Assembly: GCF_021278025.1 (NCBI RefSeq)
Contig: NZ_JAIBHJ010000002.1
Coordinates: 1-64,000, forward strand
Direction of reading: 5' to 3'
From: Motilimonas sp. E26
GTDB taxonomy: Bacteria; Pseudomonadota; Gammaproteobacteria; Enterobacterales; CBDFNC01
DNA: 64,000 nucleotides
A program made the position numbers and the translations under genes. Each line of letters opens with the position of its first letter. Within the stretch, counting starts at the first letter, position 1. The notes beneath the pieces are model-generated. The model saw only the letters and a list, made by a program, of their open reading frames with translations. It made no database searches and was not told the origin of the DNA. Below, piece by piece: positions 18,195-50,411 of this stretch.

Positions 18195-21146
18195 TTAAGG
18201 ACAAGTAACCACGTCCCAGAACCAGTTACCACCGGCTGCTGGTGTTTCCCATGCACCTGGGTTGTTTTTAGCTTTGTAACAAGCACCGTTGTAGCTTACT
18301 ACTGCGCCGTTTTGTACTGCAGTACCAGGAACGAATGGTGTTACATCGCTTGGTACAGTTGGCTCACCAGATGGTGCTGGAGTAGGCTCACCAGATGGCG
18401 TTGGTGTAGTACCGTTGTCACCGCCTGCTACAGGAACATTTGGTTGCTCAGCTGTACGACCATATGTTTTACCGCCCACTTCAAATGTGAAGTTAGTTGG
18501 TACTGGCATTGGCATGTAGATACGTAGTGCCACGTCAATTGTTTGACCTGGTTTCCATTCTACAGAGCCCCAACCGTCAGCTTTAAGCTGCACAGCGAAA
18601 CGGTGGAAGTCGTCAGATAGACCGCCCGCGTTACCTGAAGTTAGACCAGAAGTCGCGATTTTCTCTACCGACCATGTAGCACCTGAGTACATATCAACTA
18701 GGTTAGTGATACCTGGGCCTGCTGGAACAGCGTAAGGCTTAAGTGTATCGCTAATTTGTGCGTTCATTGGCACTGCTGGTGATGCGTTAAACGCAATTTT
18801 CGCACCAGATAGGTCAACGTTCGAGTTGTTAGTTAGTTTCAGAGCGATTTGGATTGGGTAGTTATCTTCACCTTTTGGTAGGTAACCCACTAGATCCACA
18901 TCTACGTCAACTGTTTCAGTTGCTGCTGGGAAGTTCTCATCACCTGCTTCGATGCCGTAAGGCGCAGCAGTTTTGATCATTTCGTAAGCTTTATCAGTTA
19001 GGGTGCTACCGAAGTAGTAGTGACCTAGACCGTTTTGCTCAGGCGTTGAATAGTCACCAGCCATTTCCCAGAACATGATACCACCCGCACCTTGGTCAAT
19101 TGCGTATTGAACTTTAGCTTGGTAAGACTTCATGTTTTCAGTAGATAGGAACACGCCCTTATCTTCATTCCACAACCAAGAAGCTTGTGCAACGTCGTCG
19201 TAATGCTCAACGTAGTTACCAATTGCTTGGCCTTCAGGCTTGCTAGTGTCGTGACCGTAAATGCTTACGTACGGTGTTGGTAGACCTTGCTTCAAGTTCT
19301 CTACGTGCCAGATTGGGTTTACACCCGCAAACATTTCTTTGCCATCTGGACCTAAGTCGTACCATAAGTTCTCAATACCTTGAGCACCTAGACCACATGG
19401 CGCGCCAGCTTTTGGAGATAGTGCGTCAGGACCTAAGTTACCACCCGTACCTAGGTAACATTCTTTTTGGTTAGCCAGTGCAGCTAGACCGTTGTAACCG
19501 TTAGTACCGCCTTGAACTTGCTGCCAACCACGAGTGTAGTATGGTAGACCGATGTTGATACGGCCGCCCGCTAGTGCAGTACGGAAGTATTTGTAAGACC
19601 AGTCAATGTTTAGGTAGCCTTGGCTGTTGTAGTATTTAGCATCGTTACCAGAGTAAATACCTGCATCAGCGATTTCGTTATCTACGCCATTGTCATACAG
19701 TGCCGCGTTGTGACCCACAAAGTGGTTCCATGCGCCGTGTAAGTCGTAAGACATGATGTTTACGTAATCTAGGTATTTAAGTGCTTGGAAGCCTTCAAAA
19801 CCACGTAGTAGGTAACCTGAAGATGGTGATGCGATAGTCAACAGGTAGTGCTGTGCATCTTTTTCACCTTGCTTGTCTAGCTCGTTACGTAGTGCTTCCA
19901 TTAGCGCCATGTAACCGCCCCATAGCTTGCCACGGTGCTGGTTAGAGATCGCCCAATCTTCTGGGTGACCGGCATCTGACATAGATGATGGGTATTCGTA
20001 ATCGATATCGATACCGTCAAAGTCGTAAGTTTCTACGAATTTAGCAGCAGATTTAGCAAATTTAGCAATTGCTTCATGGTTGATAGAACCGTCAGGCTTG
20101 ATAGTTAGGCTGTAGAAACCACCATCCATGTAACGGCCTTTGTCATCAAAGTGTGCACCTGTTTCAGCCCAACCACCAACAGATAGAAGCAGTTTAACGT
20201 CATGCTTCTTAGCGTATTGGTTTAGTAGGTTGAAGTGACCTTTGTATGGTAGAGATGGGTCCATCGCATTTTCAGCGCCTTCCCATGTCATGCCTGTAGC
20301 TGGGTTGTTTGGATCGTTTACGTCACCAACAGAAACTTCGCCTTGCTTATTAATGTGAGCAAATGCGTAGTTGATGTGCGTTAGGCTATCCCATGGCACG
20401 TCAGATGCTAGGAATGATGGTTGACCATTTGCGCCATTACGCCATGAAGTGAAGTAACCGATGATACGACGTGGGTGATCTGCGCCCATGTCTTCACGAC
20501 CGTCTGCATCATATACAGTACAGTAAGGTGTGTTAACACCTGGAGTTTGGTATAGACCTGCTGGCTTACAGTTGTCTGCAGTTGGTGGCAGTGTCGGCTC
20601 AGTAGTTGGTACTGGCGTTGGCTCAGCGGTTGGTACCGGAGTCGGCTCAGCTGTTGGTACCGGAGTCGGCTCAGCTGTTGGTACAGGAGTCGGCTCAGCG
20701 GTTGGTACAGGAGTCGGCTCAGCTGTTGGTACTGGCGTTGGCTCAGCTGTTGGTACTGGAGTCGGCTCAGCTGTTGGTACAGGAGTCGGCTCAGCTGTTG
20801 GTACTGGAGTCGGCTCAGCTGTTGGTACAGGAGTCGGCTCAGCTGTTGGCACTGGCGTTGGCTCAGCGGTCGGTTCAACCGTTGGAATTACGCCTTCACA
20901 TTGACCAAGAAGTTTCCATTCTTGCCAAGAACCAGAGCGCTCTGCAGGGTTGTTGTTTTGTGTCCACCAGTTAGCTTGGTAAGCAGAACCTTCAAATTGA
21001 ACTTGCGTTCCGCCAGTGAAAACACCTTGTGCGGTCCACTCTTCTAGGTTTGAACAATCGGCTGCTTGAGCGTTAAACGCCATTAAACATGCAGCGGAAA
21101 GGGTGCTAAGCGTAAAACCACGCTTCGCAAGAGGAGAAATGCTCAT
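18195..21146 (-). CDS. GH18 chitinase with N- and C-terminal chitin-binding modules and EPTPVPTA linker
   Basis: Start set at the ATG at 21146 (983 residues), with AAGGAAG upstream and a clean signal peptide ending A-Q-A at 28. An upstream in-frame start lacks both. Order: CBM5/12-like module (about 31-83, W-W-T-Q-N-N-N-P); linker of eleven E-P-T-P-V-P-T-A units (95-182); GH18 domain from about 222, with the full catalytic motif D377-G-I-D380-I-D382-Y-E384; a chitinase C-type beta domain (about 740-880); a second Gly/Pro/Thr linker; and a terminal CBM5/12-like module of about 50 residues ending W-F-W-D-V-V-T-C-P. It is a secreted enzyme cutting beta-1,4-linked GlcNAc chains. The linker and modules suggest action on insoluble chitin. 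It is paralogous to the next gene and separately terminated. Confidence 0.95.
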   Translation of the reverse strand: MSISPLAKRGFTLSTLSAACLMAFNAQAADCSNLEEWTAQGVFTGGTQVQFEGSAYQANWWTQNNNPAERSGSWQEWKLLGQCEGVIPTVEPTAEPTPVPTAEPTPVPTAEPTPVPTAEPTPVPTAEPTPVPTAEPTPVPTAEPTPVPTAEPTPVPTAEPTPVPTAEPTPVPTAEPTPVPTTEPTLPPTADNCKPAGLYQTPGVNTPYCTVYDADGREDMGADHPRRIIGYFTSWRNGANGQPSFLASDVPWDSLTHINYAFAHINKQGEVSVGDVNDPNNPATGMTWEGAENAMDPSLPYKGHFNLLNQYAKKHDVKLLLSVGGWAETGAHFDDKGRYMDGGFYSLTIKPDGSINHEAIAKFAKSAAKFVETYDFDGIDIDYEYPSSMSDAGHPEDWAISNQHRGKLWGGYMALMEALRNELDKQGEKDAQHYLLTIASPSSGYLLRGFEGFQALKYLDYVNIMSYDLHGAWNHFVGHNAALYDNGVDNEIADAGIYSGNDAKYYNSQGYLNIDWSYKYFRTALAGGRINIGLPYYTRGWQQVQGGTNGYNGLAALANQKECYLGTGGNLGPDALSPKAGAPCGLGAQGIENLWYDLGPDGKEMFAGVNPIWHVENLKQGLPTPYVSIYGHDTSKPEGQAIGNYVEHYDDVAQASWLWNEDKGVFLSTENMKSYQAKVQYAIDQGAGGIMFWEMAGDYSTPEQNGLGHYYFGSTLTDKAYEMIKTAAPYGIEAGDENFPAATETVDVDVDLVGYLPKGEDNYPIQIALKLTNNSNVDLSGAKIAFNASPAVPMNAQISDTLKPYAVPAGPGITNLVDMYSGATWSVEKIATSGLTSGNAGGLSDDFHRFAVQLKADGWGSVEWKPGQTIDVALRIYMPMPVPTNFTFEVGGKTYGRTAEQPNVPVAGGDNGTTPTPSGEPTPAPSGEPTVPSDVTPFVPGTAVQNGAVVSYNGACYKAKNNPGAWETPAAGGNWFWDVVTCP
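20608..20871. repeat. 24-bp tandem array, eleven copies, in chitinase linker
   Basis: Eleven 24-bp units encode E-P-T-P-V-P-T-A on the minus strand. Units differ only at a few third-codon positions, so they were amplified recently or are held alike by recombination. All six frames stay open through it, giving false open frames on both strands. Confidence 0.93.
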
Positions 21147-21177
21147 CTTGTTCTTCCTTAAACTAATCAATCTTATT

Positions 21178-21193
21178 GCAGGACGCGTCCTGC
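21178..21193. promoter_or_regulatory. 16-bp perfect palindrome upstream of the first chitinase
   Basis: GCAGGACGCGTCCTGC is fully self-complementary and lies about 32 bases before the chitinase start codon. It could be an operator for a dimeric regulator or, in RNA, part of a leader structure. No second copy was seen near the other chitinase. Confidence 0.5.
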
Positions 21194-21429
21194 TTCCTGT
21201 GCTAGCTATCCTAACTAGTACAGTCAATATACGTTTAAAAATTGATTTGGAGAAATGGAATTAAACAAAACGTGATCAAATCGCACTTATTTCAGTCGAA
21301 ATTGTTACATCGCTAGCCCTCATTGATAATTAATTTACTTTTAAAAACACTTTTTGAAGCCGATTTCACTAACCTTCTGCCTTTTAACCACAGAATAGAT
21401 ATGGCTATAGCTTTTTAATCGCTTTTAAA

Positions 21430-21486: not shown

Positions 21487-24400
21487 TTATTTTAACGTAC
21501 ACACCTTAGTCCATGACGAATCACTGGCAGAAGGCTCAGTGTTGGCTTGCCCCCAACTTGGTACCCAAATCGCGCCGTTATGAACCATTTTCTCGCCTTT
21601 TGCGTTATATGGTTTCCAGCCATCTTGATGTACGAAATCAGGATAAACAGGTAAACCTTCTGGACGGCAAAGATCCGCTAATGGTAGGTCTGGATGCTCT
21701 TGAGCAAGAGCATATTCCACTCCATCGATTTTCACTGTGTAATTAACCGGCCCTGTAATCGGTAAGTTATAAGTAAATTTGATCTTACCCGTTTCACCAT
21801 CAGCAATCGCTTGGTACTTAGATACGCTAAAGCTAATGCGATGGAAATCTCCTTTCAGACCGCCGATATTGTCACCATCATGACCCGACACAATACTGAC
21901 TGTATTAGCATTACCTGCAACCGCATTAGCCGGAGCCGATGTTGGGTAATCAAATGAAATTTCAACGAGGTCATCAATGGTCACACCCGCGTTATTTTCA
22001 ATGATAAGATCCGTCGTAATCGGGTAGTCAGCACGCTGTTTGTCTAAAGTAATCTTCAGGTCAACAGCTTGTGCGGGTATATTGCCTTCAATGATCTTGT
22101 TGCCGTAAGGCGCCGCAGACTTGAACTCTTCGTAAATGGTCTCCGTCATGGTATTACCCATGTGATATTCACCATTACCCGAAGCACATGCTGCTTCCGA
22201 TTTATCGGCCACATTTGAACGTTTGCCTTGTGCATCATATGGGTAACATGAGTAGTCGCCTGCTAGCTCCCAAAACATGATACCGCCGATACCTTGATCT
22301 TTGACGTAAGCAGCTTTAGTCAAGATTGACTTCTTATCTTCCATCGACAAGAAAGTTTGTGTCGTTGAGTTCCATAACCAAGGCGCGACGGCTTGCTCAT
22401 CGTAATGATACTCATACTGACCTTGGATCTGGTCGTAAGCTGTTTTATCGCCGGTGTAATCCGGTGAGTTAACGTATGTGGTTAGGTAAGAGCCAAGCAT
22501 GTTGTTTTGCAAGTTTTTCGCGTGCCACATTGGGTTTGAACCCGCTGGTACTTCTTGATCTTTTTCCAAGTCATGCCATAGGTTATCTAAACCTTTCGCC
22601 CCCGCGCCGCACTTACCGTGAGTACCTGCTGGACAATTGCTGCCTTTTGATTTGCCCCATAAGCCCGCTTCACCACCTGATACTTTTTCCCAACCACGGG
22701 TGTAATATGGAACACCTATATTGATACGCCCTGCTGGCATACCGCCGCGGTAATAATGAGCGGCCCAGTCCGTATTCAAGTAGCCCAGTTTGCCGTATTG
22801 CTGCGCCGCGTATACTTGCGCTAACTCGCCGTCTTTACCTGTATCGTAAAGTGCAGCATTGTGACCGACATACTCATTCCATGCACCATGTAAGTCGTAA
22901 GACATAATGTTGATGTAATCGAGGTAAGCGTTGGCTTCATAACGCTCCATACCACGTAAGAGCCAGCCAGAAGCAGGCGCCGCAACAGTTAATAGATAGT
23001 GTTGACCATCTTCAACCGAGGCTTTATCTAACTCTTCGCGCATGACCTTCATCAATTCAACATAGGAAGCCATTAAATGTGGGCGTAATTTATCAGAGAT
23101 CCAAAAGTCTTCAGGATGGCCCGCTCCTTTCATCGCAGAGGCGTATTCGTAGTCGATGTCGATACCATCAATTTTGTGCTTGCGAATAAACTCAACTGAC
23201 GATTTAGCAAACTTGGCAATGCCAGCATGATTAATTGAGCCGTCCATATTAGTGGTTAGCTTGTAGAAACCACCCGTTTGCTCACGGCCATCAGGGCCAT
23301 TAATGCCACCCGTTTCAGCCCAACCACCAACAGAAATCAGTACTTTCACATCATGTTGCATTTTACGCTCAACTAAACGAGCTAACTGCTCTTGTTGCGC
23401 TTGGCCTAAACCTACGCCTTGATCTTTACCAACATGGGCAAAGGCATAGTTAATGTGGGTTAAGTTCTCCCAAGGAATATCATCAACCAAGTAGTCTTGA
23501 TCAACATTTCCTTTATTACGCCAACTGGTAAAGTAACCAATCACGCGTCGAGGGTGATCGGCCCCCATTTTTTCGCGACCTTGATCATCGTAAACACTAC
23601 AGTATGGAACTTTTACACCCGGTGTTTGATATAAACCATCTGGGCGACAATCATTGCTCACCACGCCATCGTTAACCGTTAAAAAAGCATGTTGCTGCAT
23701 GCTCAAACCTTTCATATCTGTTGCTACTACAGTGATCTTAACGTCTTTAGTCACTACAAAATCAAAGGCATACTTGCCACTGAAAAAGTCTGAAACCGTG
23801 TCAGGCGTGAATCTAGCGATCGTTATCCCATCGCTCAAAAATTCAACTTGTTTTAAGCCATCGTCAGCATCACTAGCTGTTGCATTGATGGTAACGGTAT
23901 CTCCCAATTTAGCCTGTGTAGCACTCAAGCTAACGCTAACTTCTGGCGGCATATTTAGCACTTCTTTACCGTTTACAGTTAAACTCTGCTCAACCACAGC
24001 CCCTTTATCATCCGTGGCTGTTACAACGATATTATTAACGCCTGTTTCAACGACGAAATTGGCAAGGTAAGTCACCTTGTTACTTGTGCCATTATTGGGA
24101 CCTGGAATAAGGTCGATGACTTGACCGTTAACCATGACTTCAACGGCAGCAACTTGACCATCTTTATCTTCAGCCGTAACTTGCAACTGCACTTGTTCAC
24201 CAATCATAATTTCGGCGCCATCGGCCACACCCGCAACCGACATCGTCGGGGCTATATTATCAATGGTGCCAGTTTCAACTTGAATGGTTTGGCTCGCAAC
24301 ATTACTGGCTGCATCTTGGTCATCATAAGCAATTGCAGTTAATACATGAGTACCAGCAAGTGCTATCCAGCTTGCTTGGAACGGAGCGCTCATTGCTACA

Positions 24401-24825
24401 CCTATGGGTTGACCATCAATGAAAAATTCGACCTTTTTCACTTGACCATCTTCATCTACAGCACTGGCATTAAATGTAGTTAAAGTACCAGCAACAAGGG
24501 GAGTAACAGTATCAAGAGTGACCGTTGGTGGCACATTAATTACAGTGTCGCCACATTCACCTTTAAATTGCCAGTTAGCCCAATCAGAAGCACCAACAGC
24601 GGGTTGATCCCAGCTGCCCGCATACCATTTATTTTCAAATACCGATCCTTGGTGTTGAACCATTGTTCCTTTTGTAGCGTAGGTGCTTGAAGCATCCCAA
24701 ACAGGGATATCAGCACAATCATATAACGAGGCAGCTTGAGTATTAAAAGCCAATAAACAGGCGGATGTAATAGTACTGAGCGCAAAAGCGCCCTTGGCCA
24801 ATGAGGCCTTAGTCGATTTGTTCAT
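21487..24825 (-). CDS. GH18 chitinase with CBM5/12, three Ig-like repeats and C-terminal module
   Basis: Start set at the ATG at 24825 (1112 residues), with AAGGAT nine bases before and a signal peptide ending T-Q-A-A. Order: CBM5/12-like module (about 37-91); three Ig-like beta-sandwich repeats (about 98-184, 190-285, 291-386) each with the V-E-F/V-E-V strand and D-D/D-K-D-G turns; GH18 domain from about 420 with catalytic D553-G-I-D556-I-D558-Y-E560; a chitinase C-type domain (about 930-1040); and a C-terminal segment with W-V-P-S-W-G resembling a chitin-binding module. The catalytic region closely resembles the neighbour (C-R-P-D-G-L-Y-Q-T-P-G-V and G-A-D-H-P-R-R-V-I-G-Y-F-T-S-W shared), so they arose by duplication with replacement of the linker. 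Secreted chitin hydrolase. Confidence 0.95.
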   Translation of the reverse strand: MNKSTKASLAKGAFALSTITSACLLAFNTQAASLYDCADIPVWDASSTYATKGTMVQHQGSVFENKWYAGSWDQPAVGASDWANWQFKGECGDTVINVPPTVTLDTVTPLVAGTLTTFNASAVDEDGQVKKVEFFIDGQPIGVAMSAPFQASWIALAGTHVLTAIAYDDQDAASNVASQTIQVETGTIDNIAPTMSVAGVADGAEIMIGEQVQLQVTAEDKDGQVAAVEVMVNGQVIDLIPGPNNGTSNKVTYLANFVVETGVNNIVVTATDDKGAVVEQSLTVNGKEVLNMPPEVSVSLSATQAKLGDTVTINATASDADDGLKQVEFLSDGITIARFTPDTVSDFFSGKYAFDFVVTKDVKITVVATDMKGLSMQQHAFLTVNDGVVSNDCRPDGLYQTPGVKVPYCSVYDDQGREKMGADHPRRVIGYFTSWRNKGNVDQDYLVDDIPWENLTHINYAFAHVGKDQGVGLGQAQQEQLARLVERKMQHDVKVLISVGGWAETGGINGPDGREQTGGFYKLTTNMDGSINHAGIAKFAKSSVEFIRKHKIDGIDIDYEYASAMKGAGHPEDFWISDKLRPHLMASYVELMKVMREELDKASVEDGQHYLLTVAAPASGWLLRGMERYEANAYLDYINIMSYDLHGAWNEYVGHNAALYDTGKDGELAQVYAAQQYGKLGYLNTDWAAHYYRGGMPAGRINIGVPYYTRGWEKVSGGEAGLWGKSKGSNCPAGTHGKCGAGAKGLDNLWHDLEKDQEVPAGSNPMWHAKNLQNNMLGSYLTTYVNSPDYTGDKTAYDQIQGQYEYHYDEQAVAPWLWNSTTQTFLSMEDKKSILTKAAYVKDQGIGGIMFWELAGDYSCYPYDAQGKRSNVADKSEAACASGNGEYHMGNTMTETIYEEFKSAAPYGNKIIEGNIPAQAVDLKITLDKQRADYPITTDLIIENNAGVTIDDLVEISFDYPTSAPANAVAGNANTVSIVSGHDGDNIGGLKGDFHRISFSVSKYQAIADGETGKIKFTYNLPITGPVNYTVKIDGVEYALAQEHPDLPLADLCRPEGLPVYPDFVHQDGWKPYNAKGEKMVHNGAIWVPSWGQANTEPSASDSSWTKVCTLK

Positions 24826-24860
24826 TGCGTTTATCCTTAAACGAGCGAATGTATTATGAT

Positions 24861-24879
24861 TCGACTTTTCCCAAGTCGA
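24861..24879 (-). promoter_or_regulatory. leader hairpin upstream of the second chitinase
   Basis: TCGACTT at 24861-24867 pairs perfectly with AAGTCGA at 24873-24879 around a five-base loop. It is about 36 bases before the start codon. If transcribed, it would be a stable 5' hairpin just upstream of the binding site. The gap between this and the groL terminator shows no gene. Confidence 0.45.
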
Positions 24880-25104
24880 GCTAAAAACATAAAACATACA
24901 TCAAGCAAAAATAACAACGCAGATCACACTAAATTAATTGTTTAAAAAAACCACACTTAGTACAAATTAAAATTTAATATTAAAGTATTAAACACATCGC
25001 CAGCTGATTTAAAAACTGCCAAGCCGCTAATAAAACAACCTAAACATCAATATCTATAGATCTAGGTTCGAGCTAAGTTTTACAAGTTCACTATAAAATA
25101 GATA

Positions 25105-37297: not shown

Positions 37298-38377
37298 ATG
37301 ATGAAAACAATACGATCTATTTGCCAATCTTTAAGCTTAACCGCATTGCTAACACTGAGTGCATTTACACAAGCAGAATCGAGTGCGACGCTGGGGCCAA
37401 ATGGTGAAACAGCCACTCCCTTTACCGATATCAAGCTAACCACTGAACAACAAGAGAGCCTAAAAACGAAAGCTTATACCGCTGCAATCTTGATGCATAG
37501 CACCTCAGACTGGTCCAGTGCATTAATTGCAGGCGCAAAAGATAGCTTTGGGCAACTTAATATAGAAGTCGTCGCTGTTACCGATGCCGAGTTTGATGCC
37601 AACAAACAGCGAACCGATGTTGAAACGATTATGGCCATGAAGCCCGATATATTAATAGCTTTAGTTGTTGATCCTGTTTCCGGTGCCGCAGCCTTTAAAC
37701 CCGCGGTAGAGCAAGGCAGCAAGTTAGTGCTGATCAGTAATCTACCAAAAGGCTTTGTGCATGGTAAAGACTACGCAGGCATTGTCACTGATGACTTATT
37801 TCAAATGGGCAAAATTGCCGCCGACCTGATTGCTAAATCCGTAGGAGGGAAAGGAAAAATAGGCTTTATTTACCACGAGGCTAACTACTACGTCACCAAC
37901 CAAAGAGACCAAGCGGTACTGACTCACCTAGCCAAAAATTATCCTGATATTGAGATAGTCGCGAAACGAGGCATTGCAAACGCCAACGATGGTGAGGTGA
38001 TCGCATCGGCATTAATCACCCAGTTTAACGACATTAAAGCCATTTATGCGCCATGGGACAGCATTGCAGAAGGCGTGGTGTCGGCCACTCGCGCAGCAGG
38101 ACGCAGTGATATCAAGGTGGTGACCATGGATCTCGGCGCAGCGAATGCCTTAGACATGGCGAAGCAGCGTAATGTTGCCGGCATTGTGACGGATTTACCC
38201 TATGACCTAGGCCAAACTCTGGCTCATATGGGCGCCCTTGCTAAATTAGGTGAGCCAACACCACCGTTTGTGACTGTCAGCGCCAGTGGCGTTACCCGCG
38301 AAAATTTAGCTCAAGCTTGGCAACATGCGCTGCGTAGAGAGCTACCAAAAGCGGTCAGTAAAGCCCTTAATAATTAA
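37298..38377 (+). CDS. sugar ABC transporter, periplasmic binding protein (RbsB-like)
   Basis: Start at 37298 (or the adjacent ATG at 37301), with AGAAGG upstream; the longer frame start has no binding site. The signal peptide ends near T-Q-A. The mature protein has the type I periplasmic-binding fold of the RbsB family: A-A-I-L-M-H-S-T-S-D-W-S near 50, D-V-E-T-I-M-A-M-K-P-D-I-L-I near 90, and V-V-T-M-D-L-G near 270. It captures a sugar outside the inner membrane for the following ATPase and permease. The ligand is not readable, but the GH3 gene at the end suggests a GlcNAc-containing glycoside. Confidence 0.88.
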   Translation: MMKTIRSICQSLSLTALLTLSAFTQAESSATLGPNGETATPFTDIKLTTEQQESLKTKAYTAAILMHSTSDWSSALIAGAKDSFGQLNIEVVAVTDAEFDANKQRTDVETIMAMKPDILIALVVDPVSGAAAFKPAVEQGSKLVLISNLPKGFVHGKDYAGIVTDDLFQMGKIAADLIAKSVGGKGKIGFIYHEANYYVTNQRDQAVLTHLAKNYPDIEIVAKRGIANANDGEVIASALITQFNDIKAIYAPWDSIAEGVVSATRAAGRSDIKVVTMDLGAANALDMAKQRNVAGIVTDLPYDLGQTLAHMGALAKLGEPTPPFVTVSASGVTRENLAQAWQHALRRELPKAVSKALNN

Positions 38378-38405
38378 ACGAGCTGCAATTAGGCAAGGAG
38401 GTAAT

Positions 38406-39896
38406 ATGGCTCAGCACGTCATTGAAGCACGTAATTTACAAAAAGGGTTTGATAACAACCCGGTATTAAAAGGGGTTAATTTCACCCTAAAAGCGGGCGA
38501 AGTGCATGCGCTTGTCGGTCAAAACGGTGCGGGGAAGTCAACCTTAGTCAAGCTGCTCAACGGTTATCATCAACGCGATGGCGGCACGGTTCACTTATTT
38601 GGCGAGCCTTGTCATTTTTCTAGCCCTCGCGAAGCCCAAGCAAAAGGCATCGCGATGGTGTACCAAGATCTCAGCCTGATCCCTAGCTTAAGTATTGCTG
38701 ATAATATTTTTTTAACCCAAAACGAGCAGACTACACCGTTAATTTCAAATCGAGAGCGTGAACGCCAAGCCGCTCCTTTTTTGGCTGCTTTAGGCGTAAA
38801 CATCGACCCAAGGCAAAAGGTCGAAAGTCTCAGTGTTGGCGAACAACAATTTGTTGAAATCGCTAAGGCCTTGGCCATGAAAGCCAAAATACTCGTGCTT
38901 GATGAGCCAACGGCTTCGCTATCAAACAATGAAATTAACGAGCTGTTTAAGGTGGTCAATAAACTCAAGTCACAAGGTATTGCCATTATTTATATCACCC
39001 ATTATCTCAGTGACATCATGAGAATTTGTGATGCAGTAACGGTGCTGCGTGATGGTTATACCGTACTCGAAACAGCCACAGCCGATACGTCCATTGATGT
39101 ATTAGTTGAGGCGATGCTTGGTCAAAAAGCAAACACTCAACTGACATGGGCTCGCCAAATTGTGCCCGATAACTCCGCGTCAGTTCCTTTGTTGGAGTTG
39201 CGTGACGTGAGCACCGCGATGCTTAGCCATGTTTCACTTAAAGTGATGCCTGGTCAAGTAATAGGTTTAGCCGGATTACTCGGTAGCGGGCGCACCGAAA
39301 TTCTGGAAGCCATATATGGGCTTACGCCGCTGACAGGCGGTGAAATTTTCGTTAACGGAAAACCAGTTTCCATCGCTTCTCCTCGGTCTGCCATCGAGAA
39401 GGGCATCAATATGGTACCCGAAGAACGACGATCACAAGGACTCGTGCTGGATTTTTCTGTGTCAGATAACGTGTTAATGGCTTCGTTTGAAAGAATATCT
39501 AACTCATTGTTTTTAAATAAATCAAAAGGTGAGTCCATTGTTAACGATACGATTAAAAAGTTAGGCGTCAAAACCACGGGAATGGATCAATCGGTTCGTT
39601 TCTTATCCGGCGGTAATCAACAAAAAGTGGTGATTGGTAAGTGCCTTTCTACTGATGCCAAAGTGTTACTGCTGGACGATCCCACTTTTGGTATTGATAT
39701 CAATGCCAAATACGAAATTATGAAAATTGTAAATCAATATGTCGCGCAAGGTAACGGGGTTATTTTTGTGTCGAGTGAGTACGCTGAAGTTGGTAGTTTT
39801 TGCGATGTCATTTATGTGGTTAATAAAGGACGTATTGTGCGGCAATTTAGCGAACAGCCCATGAGCGAAGAGCAGTTACTGGCGGCAGTGCAATAG
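38406..39896 (+). CDS. sugar ABC transporter, duplicated ATP-binding protein (RbsA/MglA-like)
   Basis: Start at the ATG at 38406 (496 residues), with a near-perfect AAGGAGGT. It contains two ABC domains: the first with Walker A G-Q-N-G-A-G-K-S-T, signature L-S-V-G-E-Q-Q and Walker B I-L-V-L-D-E-P-T; the second with a degenerate Walker A G-L-L-G-S-G-R-T-E, signature L-S-G-G-N-Q-Q and Walker B L-L-L-D-D-P-T. This asymmetric pair is normal for carbohydrate importers of the RbsA type. It energises uptake with the neighbouring permease. It lies 28 bp after the binding-protein gene. Confidence 0.95.
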   Translation: MAQHVIEARNLQKGFDNNPVLKGVNFTLKAGEVHALVGQNGAGKSTLVKLLNGYHQRDGGTVHLFGEPCHFSSPREAQAKGIAMVYQDLSLIPSLSIADNIFLTQNEQTTPLISNRERERQAAPFLAALGVNIDPRQKVESLSVGEQQFVEIAKALAMKAKILVLDEPTASLSNNEINELFKVVNKLKSQGIAIIYITHYLSDIMRICDAVTVLRDGYTVLETATADTSIDVLVEAMLGQKANTQLTWARQIVPDNSASVPLLELRDVSTAMLSHVSLKVMPGQVIGLAGLLGSGRTEILEAIYGLTPLTGGEIFVNGKPVSIASPRSAIEKGINMVPEERRSQGLVLDFSVSDNVLMASFERISNSLFLNKSKGESIVNDTIKKLGVKTTGMDQSVRFLSGGNQQKVVIGKCLSTDAKVLLLDDPTFGIDINAKYEIMKIVNQYVAQGNGVIFVSSEYAEVGSFCDVIYVVNKGRIVRQFSEQPMSEEQLLAAVQ

Positions 39897-40933: not shown

Positions 40934-42544
40934 ATGATTGCCGATAGCCAAATCAGCGCCATCATCAAGCAATGGTCGTTAAAAGAAAAAATAGGTCAGC
41001 TCTTTATCTTAGCGTTTCCCGGTAAAGACGCAGAGCAAGCCAGAAACATGATTGCCGAATACAACTTAGGTGGCTGCTATTTAAGTCAAGACAACGCGAC
41101 GACGTTTGCCGAAGCTCATCAGCTTAATAAAGGGCTAGAGGGAATATTACATCAACATCAGCGCCTGCCGCTGTTACTGGGTGTAGACCAAGAAGGTGCC
41201 TGGGGCGTGCTGGTGGGAGAATCAAGCACAGGCCCAGGTAACTTAGCCCTTGGCGTGGCCGACTCGGTAAAAAACACCGAACAAATGTATCATATATTTG
41301 GCGACGAAATGCGCTATGCCGGTTTTAACTGCATATTGGGGCCGTGCTGTGATGTGAACTTTAACTTAGCTTCTCCTATTATTGATACTCGCTCGTTTGG
41401 CGATCAAGTTCATAAAGTGAGTGCCCATGCGGCTGGAGCCGTAAGAGGCTTACATCAAGGCAACATTATTGCTTGTGCCAAACATTTTCCAGGCCACGGT
41501 GACACCCAAGGTGATACCCACCGAGATATTCCACAGGTTAATAAGTCATATGACGAGTTAAAAGCTAACGATTTGGCTCCATTTCAAGCCGCGATCAACG
41601 CAGGCGTTGATGTGGTAATGACCAGCCATATCCTTTATCCCAAGCTAGATACTCAACATCCAGCTACGTTGTCACCCACCATACTGCAGCAGGTGTTACG
41701 TCATGATATGGGCTTTGATGGCATTATCATTTCAGACAGTATGAATATGGGAGCCATTGTTCATCACTATCATCCGGTCGAAGCGGCCATTAAGGCCATG
41801 CAAGCCGGGATCACTATGATCATGCTATCTGAAGAGCATTACGATCATAGCCACGCCTACTTGGATAAACAGTTAGCAATGATCCACGGCCTAGTTGAAG
41901 CGGTGGAGTCTGGCGAGCTTGCAGAAAGTATTATTGAACAAGCACTACGCCGCGTGGTGCGCTTAAAACTGGAGAAGCTAACGCCAATGGCGCTATATCA
42001 AGAAGCGGATTTTTCGCAAGGATCATTGGTCGCCAAGCAAGCAGCGCAAGGGGGGGTAACTTGGATCCGAGGAGGCATCAATGGACAAGAGCAACCCCTC
42101 TACGTAATCAATGCAACGCCAGCATCCAGTTACAGCAATTTAATCAACCCAAGAGGGATTGGCCCCAATCAAGCACAATCCGCATACTCGCACTTTATCA
42201 ACGCGCTGAAACACACTCAGCTGAATTGGCAAGAAACCAGCTTAGAACAACTTTCTGAACAGGCAAAGCAAGGCTATATTGTGCTGGTTACAGAGAACCA
42301 CCCCCTTCCCGGAGAAGATTTTGAACAACAAGCTGCGCAGCAGCTAGTGCAACAATGCAGTCGCGATTTTGACAATTTAGTGGTGGTGGCACTGCGTAGT
42401 CCTTACGATTTATGCCAATATCCAGATCTTAAACACTACTTATGCGCCCATTCGGCACGGCCAGAGAGTGCAACTGCTGCAGCGCAAGTATTAGCCAATG
42501 AAGTAACTGCCGCACAAGGCTGCGCCGTCAGTCTCGTGAGGTAA
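40934..42544 (+). CDS. GH3 beta-N-acetylhexosaminidase-like glycosidase
   Basis: A 536-residue protein without a signal peptide, so probably cytoplasmic. The N-terminal TIM-barrel (about 10-345) carries the NagZ-type motif K-H-F-P-G-H-G-D-T near 178 with the following D-T-H-R-D dyad (Asp-His as acid/base) and the nucleophile region I-I-S-D-S-M-N-M-G near 270. An extra C-terminal domain (about 350-536) makes it longer than NagZ. It should release beta-linked GlcNAc (or a related sugar) from imported oligosaccharides. It is the last gene of the sugar-import operon, which ties its substrate to the transporter. Confidence 0.85.
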   Translation: MIADSQISAIIKQWSLKEKIGQLFILAFPGKDAEQARNMIAEYNLGGCYLSQDNATTFAEAHQLNKGLEGILHQHQRLPLLLGVDQEGAWGVLVGESSTGPGNLALGVADSVKNTEQMYHIFGDEMRYAGFNCILGPCCDVNFNLASPIIDTRSFGDQVHKVSAHAAGAVRGLHQGNIIACAKHFPGHGDTQGDTHRDIPQVNKSYDELKANDLAPFQAAINAGVDVVMTSHILYPKLDTQHPATLSPTILQQVLRHDMGFDGIIISDSMNMGAIVHHYHPVEAAIKAMQAGITMIMLSEEHYDHSHAYLDKQLAMIHGLVEAVESGELAESIIEQALRRVVRLKLEKLTPMALYQEADFSQGSLVAKQAAQGGVTWIRGGINGQEQPLYVINATPASSYSNLINPRGIGPNQAQSAYSHFINALKHTQLNWQETSLEQLSEQAKQGYIVLVTENHPLPGEDFEQQAAQQLVQQCSRDFDNLVVVALRSPYDLCQYPDLKHYLCAHSARPESATAAAQVLANEVTAAQGCAVSLVR

Positions 42545-47304: not shown

Positions 47305-47340
47305 TATTGTAGCGAATAATAAATGATAATGTTATAAAAG

Positions 47341-48048
47341 TTATGGATAAGGAGGCTGCGGACAGACACCACCAGTACATTTAGCCCACGTTAATTCAAA
47401 ATTTGTGTCATTTCCTGGTTTGGGTCCCCAAGTATTATGATTCCTACACTGGGACATAACCTTGCATACGTACTTATCCGCACCAAATTTCATTTGGTCG
47501 CCTTGATAATATGGAGCATTCTCAACATAGCTTGGAGGTATATGTAATGGGTTTGAGGGATCTTGCACTAGTTTTAGAGGTGCTCCAGTACCAGAGCCGC
47601 CGCCATTAATAGAATCAAAAAACTCATCTGACTTAAACGTGGTAACAGGGGATAGATCTGAGGCCAAAGTTATACTTCTAGAATCACCTGAGTCTAACGA
47701 ATTCCAGCTGACATCAATAGTCAATTTTTTCAATTGCTTGCCTGTAGCAATCCCACTGCTTGGTACAATTGTTATATCTGTTGGAGATGATTTAGTCACG
47801 GTGAACGTAGTGCCATTATATGCCTGAGAAACTGCTCCGCTCACCACAACTGTAGAAAAATTACTTTCATCAAATACACGTATCTTTTCAAACGATTCCT
47901 GAGCCAAGCGAGCAGCAATCATATGTTCTTCTGCTTCAGCACTTTTCTTTCTCATGTGCTTTTGTAACCCAATAATTCCCATTACCCCTACTGAAATCAC
48001 CAGTAAAGAGATTAAGACTTCTAATAATCCAAACCCTTTATTACGCAT
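47341..48048 (-). CDS. type IV minor pilin PilV-like with C-terminal chitin-binding-like module
   Basis: Start at the ATG at 48048 (235 residues), with GGAG eight bases before and the prepilin leader M-R-N-K-G followed by F-G-L-L-E-V-L-I-S-L-L (cleavage after Gly, Glu at +5). This is a type III signal peptide with a hydrophobic helix, as in PilV. The middle is an ordinary pilin beta region. After a Gly/Ser-rich linker (149-155) the end (about 174-224) reads P-Y-Y-Q-G-D-Q-M-K-F, then Y-V-C-K, W-G-P-K-P and W-A-K-C. This is the spacing of CBM5/12 chitin-binding modules, and both chitinases here carry such modules. A tail C-P-Q-P-P-Y-P follows. Pilin identity is firm; the chitin-binding reading needs profile support. 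It overlaps pilX by 8 bp. Confidence 0.85.
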   Translation of the reverse strand: MRNKGFGLLEVLISLLVISVGVMGIIGLQKHMRKKSAEAEEHMIAARLAQESFEKIRVFDESNFSTVVVSGAVSQAYNGTTFTVTKSSPTDITIVPSSGIATGKQLKKLTIDVSWNSLDSGDSRSITLASDLSPVTTFKSDEFFDSINGGGSGTGAPLKLVQDPSNPLHIPPSYVENAPYYQGDQMKFGADKYVCKVMSQCRNHNTWGPKPGNDTNFELTWAKCTGGVCPQPPYP

Positions 48049-49156
48049 CAAAATCACTCCATCCACCTGGAACCCAATATGCCGACGCAGCATCTCCATT
48101 TAGACGGCTGGTTAAATAATCTGAGCGATAAACTATGTGCAGGGTGTTTTGATAGCCGAATGTATATTTGTAATCAAAAATAGCCGCCCCATGTATCTGC
48201 CCATTTAAATCAAAAGCGAAACTTGCCTGTGAGACACCTTCAGCAGAACCACCTGTCACATTGGTCGAATCAAAGGCATACAACAAACCGTAAATATTCG
48301 CAACTCCTGATAAACTACCATCCTGAACAATCAATGTAGTAGGGTCTCCATCTACACCAACATCAGCGGTCAACACACAGTCACCCTGAACCCAAAGGGC
48401 AACAGGCTTAGGTATAAGTGCTAAAGCAGTATCTATAGTCGTTTCATTACAATCAGCAATGACCGCAACCTCATCACTATCTCGAACATCAGTCCAATCT
48501 TTTTCTGGGACTCCCATATACGCTAAAAAGTTATCTCCACGAAGAGAGTCTACGCCCGTTTCATCTGAACCTGCAGGATATAAAGCAACAGAGGCGCCCG
48601 ATTTATCAAAAACAGGACCACCTGTTTGGATTGCATGTTCGGCATAGACGGGGCTATGGTTATATTCGCCGTTAATATTTATTGACCCAACGACTGTAGA
48701 AGAGCCAGCAGCCAATAATGGTGAATCAATAGTTTTCACACCATATCTAGCATCAGCTATACGACTTATAGTCTTAGTATTATTTCCGCTATCGCCTTTT
48801 CCTTTAGATGTGACTCGTACTGTGCTGCAATCGACACACATTTCTTCAATTTCAACGGTATATCTGTTAGCGTCTGTCACTGTATAAAGCTTCCTCCCCG
48901 ATCCTAAATCTGTACTAGGCAAAGCTGAAGCTTCTTTCCACCCCTTACTATTCATTAAGCTAAAGGCATAATCCATTCCCGCCTCAGCATTAATAAACGC
49001 TTCTCGATAGCGATAATCATTTGCTGCAATTTTACTTTCCATCACCCGCGATTTAACACTAAAAAAAGTAAAACTGGTTGCAGAGATAAGCAATAATAAA
49101 GTAACGGTTAGCATGGCTAACCCGGATTGCTTGCTTGAAAGTTGTGTTATTTTCAT
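48041..49156 (-). CDS. PilX-like minor pilin assembly protein
   Basis: A 371-residue protein opening with S-G-L-A-M-L-T-V-T-L-L-L-L-I, a hydrophobic N-terminal helix, then E-S-K-I-A-A-N-D-Y-R-Y-R-E-A-F-I-N-A-E-A-G-M-D-Y-A. This is the typical PilX N-terminal region with its conserved glutamates. The rest is a beta-rich domain with a C-V-D-C pair and a few other cysteines. It would join the minor-pilin initiation complex at the pilus tip. Its ATG overlaps the pilW stop (ATGA), indicating coupled translation. Confidence 0.82.
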   Translation of the reverse strand: MKITQLSSKQSGLAMLTVTLLLLISATSFTFFSVKSRVMESKIAANDYRYREAFINAEAGMDYAFSLMNSKGWKEASALPSTDLGSGRKLYTVTDANRYTVEIEEMCVDCSTVRVTSKGKGDSGNNTKTISRIADARYGVKTIDSPLLAAGSSTVVGSININGEYNHSPVYAEHAIQTGGPVFDKSGASVALYPAGSDETGVDSLRGDNFLAYMGVPEKDWTDVRDSDEVAVIADCNETTIDTALALIPKPVALWVQGDCVLTADVGVDGDPTTLIVQDGSLSGVANIYGLLYAFDSTNVTGGSAEGVSQASFAFDLNGQIHGAAIFDYKYTFGYQNTLHIVYRSDYLTSRLNGDAASAYWVPGGWSDFDA

Positions 49157-49854
49157 TGTCTATATAACTCCAAATTTCGAATTTGTATTTCTGATGACAT
49201 GGTTTCTGTTGCTGTTTTTTGCGCTATTGATACTTCGCCAGTTAAGTCAATTTTAATCAAACGCATTCTGGTTCTATCGCTATCAATCGTTCTGGGAGTA
49301 AATTTCAGTGATTTAATAGTGATTAAATTCGGGTCCGTTATTTTTTCCCATGTACCAGAAGAGGTGCAATCGGCAGGATTGGCATCAATTGAGTGGCCAA
49401 GCTGAACGGCATTATCTTTTAGGCGATAGCCAAAGCGCTCTTCCGCCTCTGGAATACCACCTGTTTTATTAAAATCGTACATAAACACTATACAGCTATC
49501 AGGGACACTATTGTGGGCAAAAATTTTCGTTGCCACGCCAGCAGAAGCAGCGCTCACAACGCCGCCAATGGTAATAGTTGCGTCCTCTTCCCACATAAAA
49601 TTATTAGCACCGGATACCGTGCCCATCGCATAAGAAATGGTATCCCCTCTATACCCTGCACGGCGAATATCAGATTCCATCAGGTGCATCACTGCCTGAA
49701 GGTCGGTTTTCATACGGGAGTATTTGATACTGTTGATGTTATTAACCACACCACTGACGTATAGGCTGGAGATCATGGCGATCACTAAGGTGCCTAGTAC
49801 TAGGGATATCATTAATTCGACAAGTGAGAAGCCGTGTTGTTTTTTTAGATACAT
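49153..49854 (-). CDS. PilW-like minor pilin
   Basis: A 233-residue prepilin: leader M-Y-L-K-K-Q-H-G, then F-S-L-V-E-L-M-I-S-L-V-L-G with Glu at +5 and a hydrophobic helix. The body has A-V-M-H-L-M-E-S-D-I-R-R-A-G-Y-R-G, the conserved PilW block. It functions with FimT, PilX and PilV in starting type IV pilus assembly. It overlaps fimT by 10 bp. Confidence 0.88.
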   Translation of the reverse strand: MYLKKQHGFSLVELMISLVLGTLVIAMISSLYVSGVVNNINSIKYSRMKTDLQAVMHLMESDIRRAGYRGDTISYAMGTVSGANNFMWEEDATITIGGVVSAASAGVATKIFAHNSVPDSCIVFMYDFNKTGGIPEAEERFGYRLKDNAVQLGHSIDANPADCTSSGTWEKITDPNLITIKSLKFTPRTIDSDRTRMRLIKIDLTGEVSIAQKTATETMSSEIQIRNLELYRQ

Positions 49855-50411
49855 TCCTTGTAACCTAATCCTACATCGCCTACTTGGCAGATTCTGACCC
49901 TGCCGCGTGGGCTAGTGATCACATTTAATTGTTTATGCTGCGCATTTTCTAGCCGAATTGTACCGCCATTTGCAGTTAAACGCACGGATGAAAATTGTAC
50001 TTTATTATCACTAAAGGTAACTGGTTCTACTGTTGCTAAAGTGATCTTCTCACCGTCAACCCAATCAGCACTGGTGTCTAGGCCATCTAATGTACAGGAG
50101 TTTGCCGTAAAACAATCGCAACTCGCTAAGTCAGTTAAACCCGTTTTCCATTTGTTACCTTGTTGGCAAAAATGAAGGTAGATGTTTTGATTACGCTTTA
50201 GCGCTTCGCTCTTGGCATGCATTAACCGGCTATAGGTAGATTCTGCAATACCTTTTAAGTTTTGATCTTGCGTTAAGCTTTGATAGGAAGGTAAACCAAT
50301 GCCAAGGATAATTCCCATGACCACTAACGCTATCATTAACTCTATTAAGGTAAATCCTTGGGTAAATTTACGGTTAAATCCGTAACTAAACCCCCTCACC
50401 TTTTTTAACAT
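49845..50411 (-). CDS. fimT: FimT/GspH-family minor pseudopilin
   Basis: A 188-residue prepilin: a somewhat long leader (about 18 residues, ending T-Q-G) before F-T-L-I-E-L-M-I-A-L-V-V-M-G-I, then the GspH/FimT beta domain with A-K-S-E-A-L-K-R-N near 67 and a C-terminal S-P-R-G-R-V-R-I-C. Several cysteines (C-D-C-F near 98). It is the first gene of the minor-pilin operon (fimT-pilW-pilX-pilV); the binding site AAGGGAAT precedes the ATG. The operon lacks pilY1 and pilE, which commonly complete it. Confidence 0.87.
   Translation of the reverse strand: MLKKVRGFSYGFNRKFTQGFTLIELMIALVVMGIILGIGLPSYQSLTQDQNLKGIAESTYSRLMHAKSEALKRNQNIYLHFCQQGNKWKTGLTDLASCDCFTANSCTLDGLDTSADWVDGEKITLATVEPVTFSDNKVQFSSVRLTANGGTIRLENAQHKQLNVITSPRGRVRICQVGDVGLGYKECI

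Follow-up and report, generated by a model that had tools for sequence, protein, structure and literature searches.

The minor pilin PilV of Motilimonas sp. E26 is a protein of two parts: sequence profiles and a predicted structure together demonstrate a pilin joined to a tail that is homologous to CBM73-type modules, and this tail is present in each of the four Motilimonas genomes that we examined. In our preferred reading, to which we give a probability of roughly 60%, PilV is a modular minor pilin of the I type, it belongs to the complex at the tip of the pilus, and it displays a CBM73-like module that most likely grips crystalline chitin or a similar β-1,4 glycan. The gene lies in a stretch of 64,000 nucleotides, which we call the window, from a genome of 4.6 Mb in 84 contigs.

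Table 1. Features of the window that bear on PilV and its surroundings
Feature	Coordinates	Strand	Description or basis
pilV	47341..48048	minus	modular minor pilin of 235 aa (I-subunit type); CBM73-like tail
Prepilin leader MRNKG	48034..48048	minus	mature start FGLLE with Glu5; N_methyl match
Pilin module, residues 6-145	47614..48033	minus	N-terminal helix and beta core; AF2 model, VIA alignment
Gly/Ser-rich linker, residues about 146-162	47563..47613	minus	sequence; pLDDT 33-39 for residues 131-160
CBM73-like module, residues 163-224	47377..47562	minus	profile matches; VIA alignment of model residues 166-227
Cys195	47464..47466	minus	corresponds to C366 of CjCBM73; invariant in 4/4
Gln200-Cys201	47446..47451	minus	Cys201 corresponds to C372 of CjCBM73; Gln200 at the expected place of W371
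Trp207	47428..47430	minus	aligned with contact residue Y378; aromatic in 4/4
Phe217	47398..47400	minus	aligned with contact residue W386; Phe in 3/4, non-aromatic in M. pumila
pilX	48041..49156	minus	K subunit type; PilX_N 24.8 bits, just below cut-off 25.5
pilW	49153..49854	minus	J subunit type (by operon order); N_methyl; PRK10557-type 69.4 bits, cut-off 120
fimT	49845..50411	minus	H subunit type; GspH domain 6.8e-10
Block divergent from M. cestriensis	47320..49590		pilX and pilV in full, plus the 3' portion of pilW
Chitinase	18195-21227		Pfam CBM_5_12 present
Chitinase	21487-24897		GH18, ChiC, Big_7; no CBM_5_12 at E ≤ 0.001
GH3 gene	40934-42544
ABC ATPase gene	38325-39896

From the letters alone, the sequence-only reading had proposed that the open reading frame at 48048-47341 on the minus strand encodes a PilV with a pilin leader, a linker, and a tail of about 60 residues with the spacing of aromatic residues, Gly-Asp, and Cys that is typical of chitin-binding modules, and all of these are present. 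The cleavage region consists of MRNKG followed, after the cut, by FGLLEVL, and it matches Pfam's N_methyl family (E = 3.7e-5). Residues 4-63 match the NCBIfam model for PilV (TIGR02523, type_IV_pilV) at 52.7 bits, above the cut-off of 52.2. The linker differs in length among the PilVs of the four Motilimonas species. In the tail (residues 163-224), 17 columns are invariant in all four proteins (D, P, H, P, P, Y, Y, D, Q, K, Y, C, C, G, P, W, and C).

The spacing in the tail goes beyond chance, as profile matches in the same genome and in the PDB and the scores of shuffled sequences indicate. We compared a profile of the tails of the four Motilimonas PilVs alone (the tail profile) to the E26 genome in six frames. 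Besides PilV itself (E = 1.4e-33), it matched four other proteins at E ≤ 10: a GH18 chitinase on contig C14 (1.5e-7, the best of these), a GH5 cellulase-type enzyme at C12:114665 (1.3e-4), an S1 trypsin-type protease on contig C31 (3.1e-4), and a metallophosphatase on contig C39 (0.29, which is not significant alone). All four of these proteins also have matches to Pfam's CBM_5_12, two of them over the cut-off and two under it. CBM73-type modules are carried by a metallophosphatase with hemopexin repeats (L097, 4192-7974) and by a trypsin-type protease (L099, 1907-3616). Among 177,635 sequences from the PDB, the first match of the tail profile was 6z41 at 2.5e-4, and the next was at 5.6. Since 6z41 is the CBM73 of CjLPMO10A (as described in PMC8449059), the PilV tail has profile similarity to a CBM73. 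Single-sequence searches of the PDB with phmmer, using the whole PilV or the tail alone, found nothing at E ≤ 10. A mixed profile of PilV tails and four enzyme modules reached CbpD (2.6e-6), whose C-terminal module we take to be a CBM73, and GbpA (6.1e-6); these matches are not independent of the others.

A reverse profile, made from six enzyme-type modules without any PilV (the enzyme profile), found the PilVs of M. eburnea (3.2e-9), M. cestriensis (8.2e-6), and the window (0.032); the PilV of M. pumila was not among its matches at E ≤ 10. The tails of the first three scored 40.6, 29.7, and 18.0 bits, respectively, and the best scores from shuffling were 15.5, 12.3, and 11.2 bits, so that for each tail, none of 5,000 shuffles matched the real score. 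The tail from M. pumila scored 9.0 bits, which was reached by 10 of 5,000 shuffles. When the tail profile was aligned to the enzyme profile with hhalign, the probability was 97.6 over 50 columns, versus 77.9 over 24 columns for 14 CBM5/12 modules from the same genome. Similarly, the tail profile gave 15.9-35.4 bits to the six CBM73-type modules and -0.3 to 11.0 bits to the 14 CBM5/12 modules.

The tail had originally been assigned to the CBM5/12 type, and this part of the earlier proposal did not hold up. The PilV of the window has no match to Pfam's CBM_5_12 (PF02839) at E ≤ 10, nor to any CBM model in NCBIfam, and the scores of the tail profile favor CBM73-type modules. As for the other PilVs, that of M. 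cestriensis scored 15.9 bits with CBM_5_12, under the cut-off of 26.2, and those of M. eburnea and M. pumila had no match at E ≤ 1. Judged by its sequence, the tail is of a type nearer to CBM73 than to CBM5/12. We refine its family label to CBM73-like, and chitin binding is a strong candidate for its function.

In the CBM73 of CjLPMO10A (CjCBM73), W371, Y378, and W386 contact chitin, Y351 and W390 belong to the core, and the bond between C366 and C372 is described as unique to CBM73 (PMC8449059). (We numbered the residues of 6z41 by counting from C340, and the letters agree at all of the named positions.) By alignment, all four PilVs have both cysteines of this pair (C195 and C201), and the bond between them is predicted. 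The equivalents of the two core aromatics (Y180 and W221) are kept in all four proteins, and so is Gly208-Pro209. More broadly, the PilV tail, 6z41, and the C-terminal CBM73 of GbpA have the layout Y-x-x-x-D/G-x-V...Y-x-C-(5)-C...[YW]-x-P...W in common. Unlike the CBM73s of CjLPMO10A and GbpA, the PilV module is attached to a pilin, not to an LPMO; it has Gln in place of W371; and it is missing the N-terminal cysteine of the disulfide that joins the N and C termini (C340-C396). None of the four PilVs has a cysteine at the position of C340, and C224 lies near the position of C396. Because the C340 cysteine is missing, we call the module CBM73-like and not a member of CBM73; from these alignments, it is a divergent module of that kind.

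The contact positions bear on the main alternative, which is that the tail descends from a true CBM73 and has lost chitin binding in the window species, where it would now be a structural cap or a binder of peptidoglycan, DNA, or another surface glycan. In favor of it, W371 is replaced by Gln200 in the window and by Asn in M. pumila, where just one of the three contact positions is aromatic. Against it, the window PilV has aromatic residues at two of the three positions, and it retains the two core aromatics and the pair of cysteines typical of CBM73; in M. cestriensis and M. eburnea, all three positions are aromatic, with Trp at that of W371 and Phe at that of W386. The enzyme profile's marginal match to the window tail, and its silence on M. 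pumila, are in favor of this alternative. So is the rate of divergence: between the PilV of the window and those of the three relatives, identity is 71-73% in the N-terminal helix, 32-40% in the core, and 37-41% in the tail. Because the tail and the core diverge alike, the tail shows neither special conservation nor decay when set against the pilin that carries it. Overall, we consider a loss of chitin binding to be possible but doubtful.

The gene for PilV is the last in an operon with the order fimT-pilW-pilX-pilV, in which adjoining genes overlap by 4 to 10 bases. The mature PilX starts with LAMLT and is without Glu5, which is present in FimT, PilW, and PilV; a missing Glu5 is described as the mark of the capping subunit (PMC10191384). 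The E26 genome has a second set of the fimT-pilW-pilX-pilV type on contig C23. Its PilV has 155 amino acids, without the linker and the tail, and ends with ...SPLSHFSSDNIFKDLTGN, at the position where the linker of the window PilV starts. Short PilV paralogues (in frames of 149-155 amino acids) are also found in M. pumila, M. eburnea, and M. cestriensis. Large PilY1-like genes (identified as PilY1 by eye) accompany two minor-pilin clusters that lie in tandem on another contig of E26 (C18; L041).

Unexpectedly, part of the operon differs from that of M. cestriensis, although the two species are otherwise close. The nucleotide identity is 95% up to position 47319 and 93% from 49591 on (BLAST pieces). 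Within the block between these positions, which ends at 49590, identity is 42-70% per 100 bases, with a mean of about 53%, and the borders are sharp. At the protein level, PilW is 66% identical, PilX 49%, and PilV 45%, versus 93% for FimT, 98-99% for the neighbors (98% for an MFS protein and for a CBS protein, 99% for a histidine kinase), and 99% for the GH3 protein. The other pilin clusters, which are 71-98% identical between the two species, are thus also looser than the neighbors, but none is as different. Both versions of the block keep the module. The simplest reading is that the block was replaced by recombination, because steady fast divergence would less readily yield such borders.

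These identities also fit another alternative, in which the main selection is for variation of the exposed tip (under pressure from phage or kin recognition, for instance) and the module is simply carried along. We consider this improbable, as the cysteine pair, Tyr180, Trp221, and Gly208-Pro209 are kept in all four PilVs, which is more than passive carriage would demand. A further reading is that the block might be an exchangeable tip cassette: Motilimonas would recombine whole tip complexes, each with its own version of the chitin-binding-type module, and so retune the pilus to other forms of chitin or to the glycans of other particles. This reading is speculative and, in our view, rather unlikely.

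The sequence-only reading had suggested comparing a predicted structure to known chitin-binding folds. The full-length AF2 model (four sequences) has a mean pLDDT of 59; a model of the tail alone was poor (50). In VIA, residues 36-133 of the full-length model align with chains of GspK-GspI-GspJ, EpsI-EpsJ, and XcpV-XcpW, with Z from 8.2 to 7.4. The best match to the core is chain I of 3ci0 (GspK-GspI-GspJ; Z of 8.2 over 78 residues, rmsd 3.0), so the model supports a resemblance of the PilV core to the I subunit of the tip complex (GspI-like). Separately, residues 166-227 of the model align with a chitin deacetylase from V. cholerae (386-433, Z of 5.1), chitinase B (448-498, 4.7-4.9), MmChi60 (505-550, 4.3), and chitinase C of S. 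griseus (32-79, 4.3). We take these ranges to be the chitin-binding modules of the chitinases, and 386-433 of the deacetylase to be such a module as well. The chitinase entries do carry chitin-binding modules according to PMC8449059, which names them by entry. The Z scores for the module are modest: domains of phage tails match at a similar level to the module (8fqc, 5.1), unrelated enzymes reach 4.5-5.7 on the core, and VIA warns that a Z under 8 may reflect only a common arrangement. 6z41 was absent among the best 50 VIA entries; GbpA (8gul) was there, with one alignment that spans both parts of the model. Foldseek found no significant match in the PDB (the best E was 0.075), and its first rows included chitinase B from Serratia and the EpsI-EpsJ pseudopilins, with unrelated proteins in between. 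Because the Z scores are modest and phage tails score alike, the fold is supporting evidence for the kinship of the module, short of proof, and it does not name the ligand.

Together, the profiles, hhalign, and VIA uphold the earlier proposal that PilV combines a pilin with a module akin to the chitin-binding modules of secreted enzymes. That the tail is instead just the usual pilin D-region at the C terminus, as its four cysteines and its C-terminal position could suggest, is very improbable, since the GspI-type alignment stops near residue 133, the linker sets the tail apart, a tailless paralogue exists, and the tail profile matches enzyme modules.

We also searched more widely for CBM73-type modules. 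On proteins of any kind, there were matches in at least 72 of 394 genomes from the order (at 1e-5, with the four Motilimonas included) and in 10 of 369 genomes from the class (at 1e-6, with E26 included). (In many genomes, the candidates that we scored were the 16 or 17 from a first look.) Inspection for leaders covered short frames, and none of the six from outside Motilimonas (G013, G216, G189, G630, G516, and G434) has a prepilin leader; the frame from G516 runs off its contig. A match in G023 to query residues 149-228 (7.8e-4) is in a frame that we read as a trypsin-type protease, and we took it to be due to chance.

Other PilVs have tails of different kinds. In the genus that we label g12 (L113-L134), a PilV resembling the one in G057 occurs in 22 of 24 genomes, and the 20 tails that we examined contain no cysteine. 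A profile of 12 of these tails gave weak and partial matches to a chitinase module (0.014) and a chitin deacetylase (0.016); with hhalign, it scored 76.7 over 22 columns to CBM5/12 and 2.6 to the Motilimonas tails. In Oceanisphaera and other genomes (L070-L073 and L042-L046, of which L071-L073 are from Oceanisphaera), PilV-type pilins lie in frames of about 660-710 amino acids. By eye, these have a large cysteine-bearing C-terminal region in common, unlike the Motilimonas tail, and they appear to be another group of modular PilVs.

The genomic context is that of a chitin degrader. Chitin degradation is reported for Motilimonas, as are type IVa pili in all genomes studied (PMC13182010), and the E26 genome has 35 matches to CBM_5_12 at E ≤ 1, of which 23 are over the cut-off. 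In the window, the sequence-only reading had noticed GH3 and ABC genes, which we found, and two chitinases with modules of the CBM5/12 type; this is correct for the first of these chitinases, and the second had no match to CBM_5_12 at E ≤ 0.001 (Table 1). Cellulose is also a possible ligand of the PilV tail because the same type of module is found on the GH5 cellulase-type enzyme.

Pili from other bacteria offer partial parallels. The DNA-uptake pili of V. cholerae bind chitin (PMC6762196), and the minor pilins of its competence pilus are encoded by overlapping genes in the order fimT-pilW-pilX-pilV (PMC13249403). These genes (VC0858-VC0861) resemble those of Motilimonas in order and overlaps, the two features that we compared, and a grafted module does not feature in the passages of PMC13249403 that describe them. 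Adhesive domains grafted onto modular pilins are known from the tips of other pili (PMC8179133, PMC9934059). In PilB and PilC of Streptococcus sanguinis, a ligand-binding domain is grafted via a linker onto a minor pilin, presumably at the tip, and the module of PilC binds glycans (PMC8179133, PMC9934059). The S. sanguinis grafts are a vWA domain and a ConA-like lectin, whereas the Motilimonas graft is CBM73-like, and the pilin that carries it is the I-type member of a set made up of FimT, PilW, PilX, and PilV. On the basis of PMC9934059 and PMC10191384, we infer that PilV is located at the tip of the pilus. Among the open-licence PMC papers listed by our literature searches, none was on a chitin-binding module on PilV.

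In our preferred reading, the GspI-like N-terminal part of PilV would assemble with FimT, PilW, and PilX into the complex from which a type IVa pilus is started and which forms its tip, and the flexible linker would display the CBM73-like module at the tip. The module would most likely grip crystalline chitin or a similar β-1,4 glycan on particles, and extension and retraction of the pilus would then draw the cell onto the food particle.

Whole pili of Vibrio are known to bind chitin; to our knowledge, it is not settled which part of the pilus is responsible. If our reading is true, a tip subunit equipped with a chitinase-type module would answer this question directly in another chitin degrader, and the known modular pilins would be joined by one whose I-type subunit bears a module of the chitin type. 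The sharply bounded block, if general, would show that the tip complex evolves by block exchange. For a marine chitin-degrading bacterium, we predict that the pilus may serve as a fishing line for chitin.
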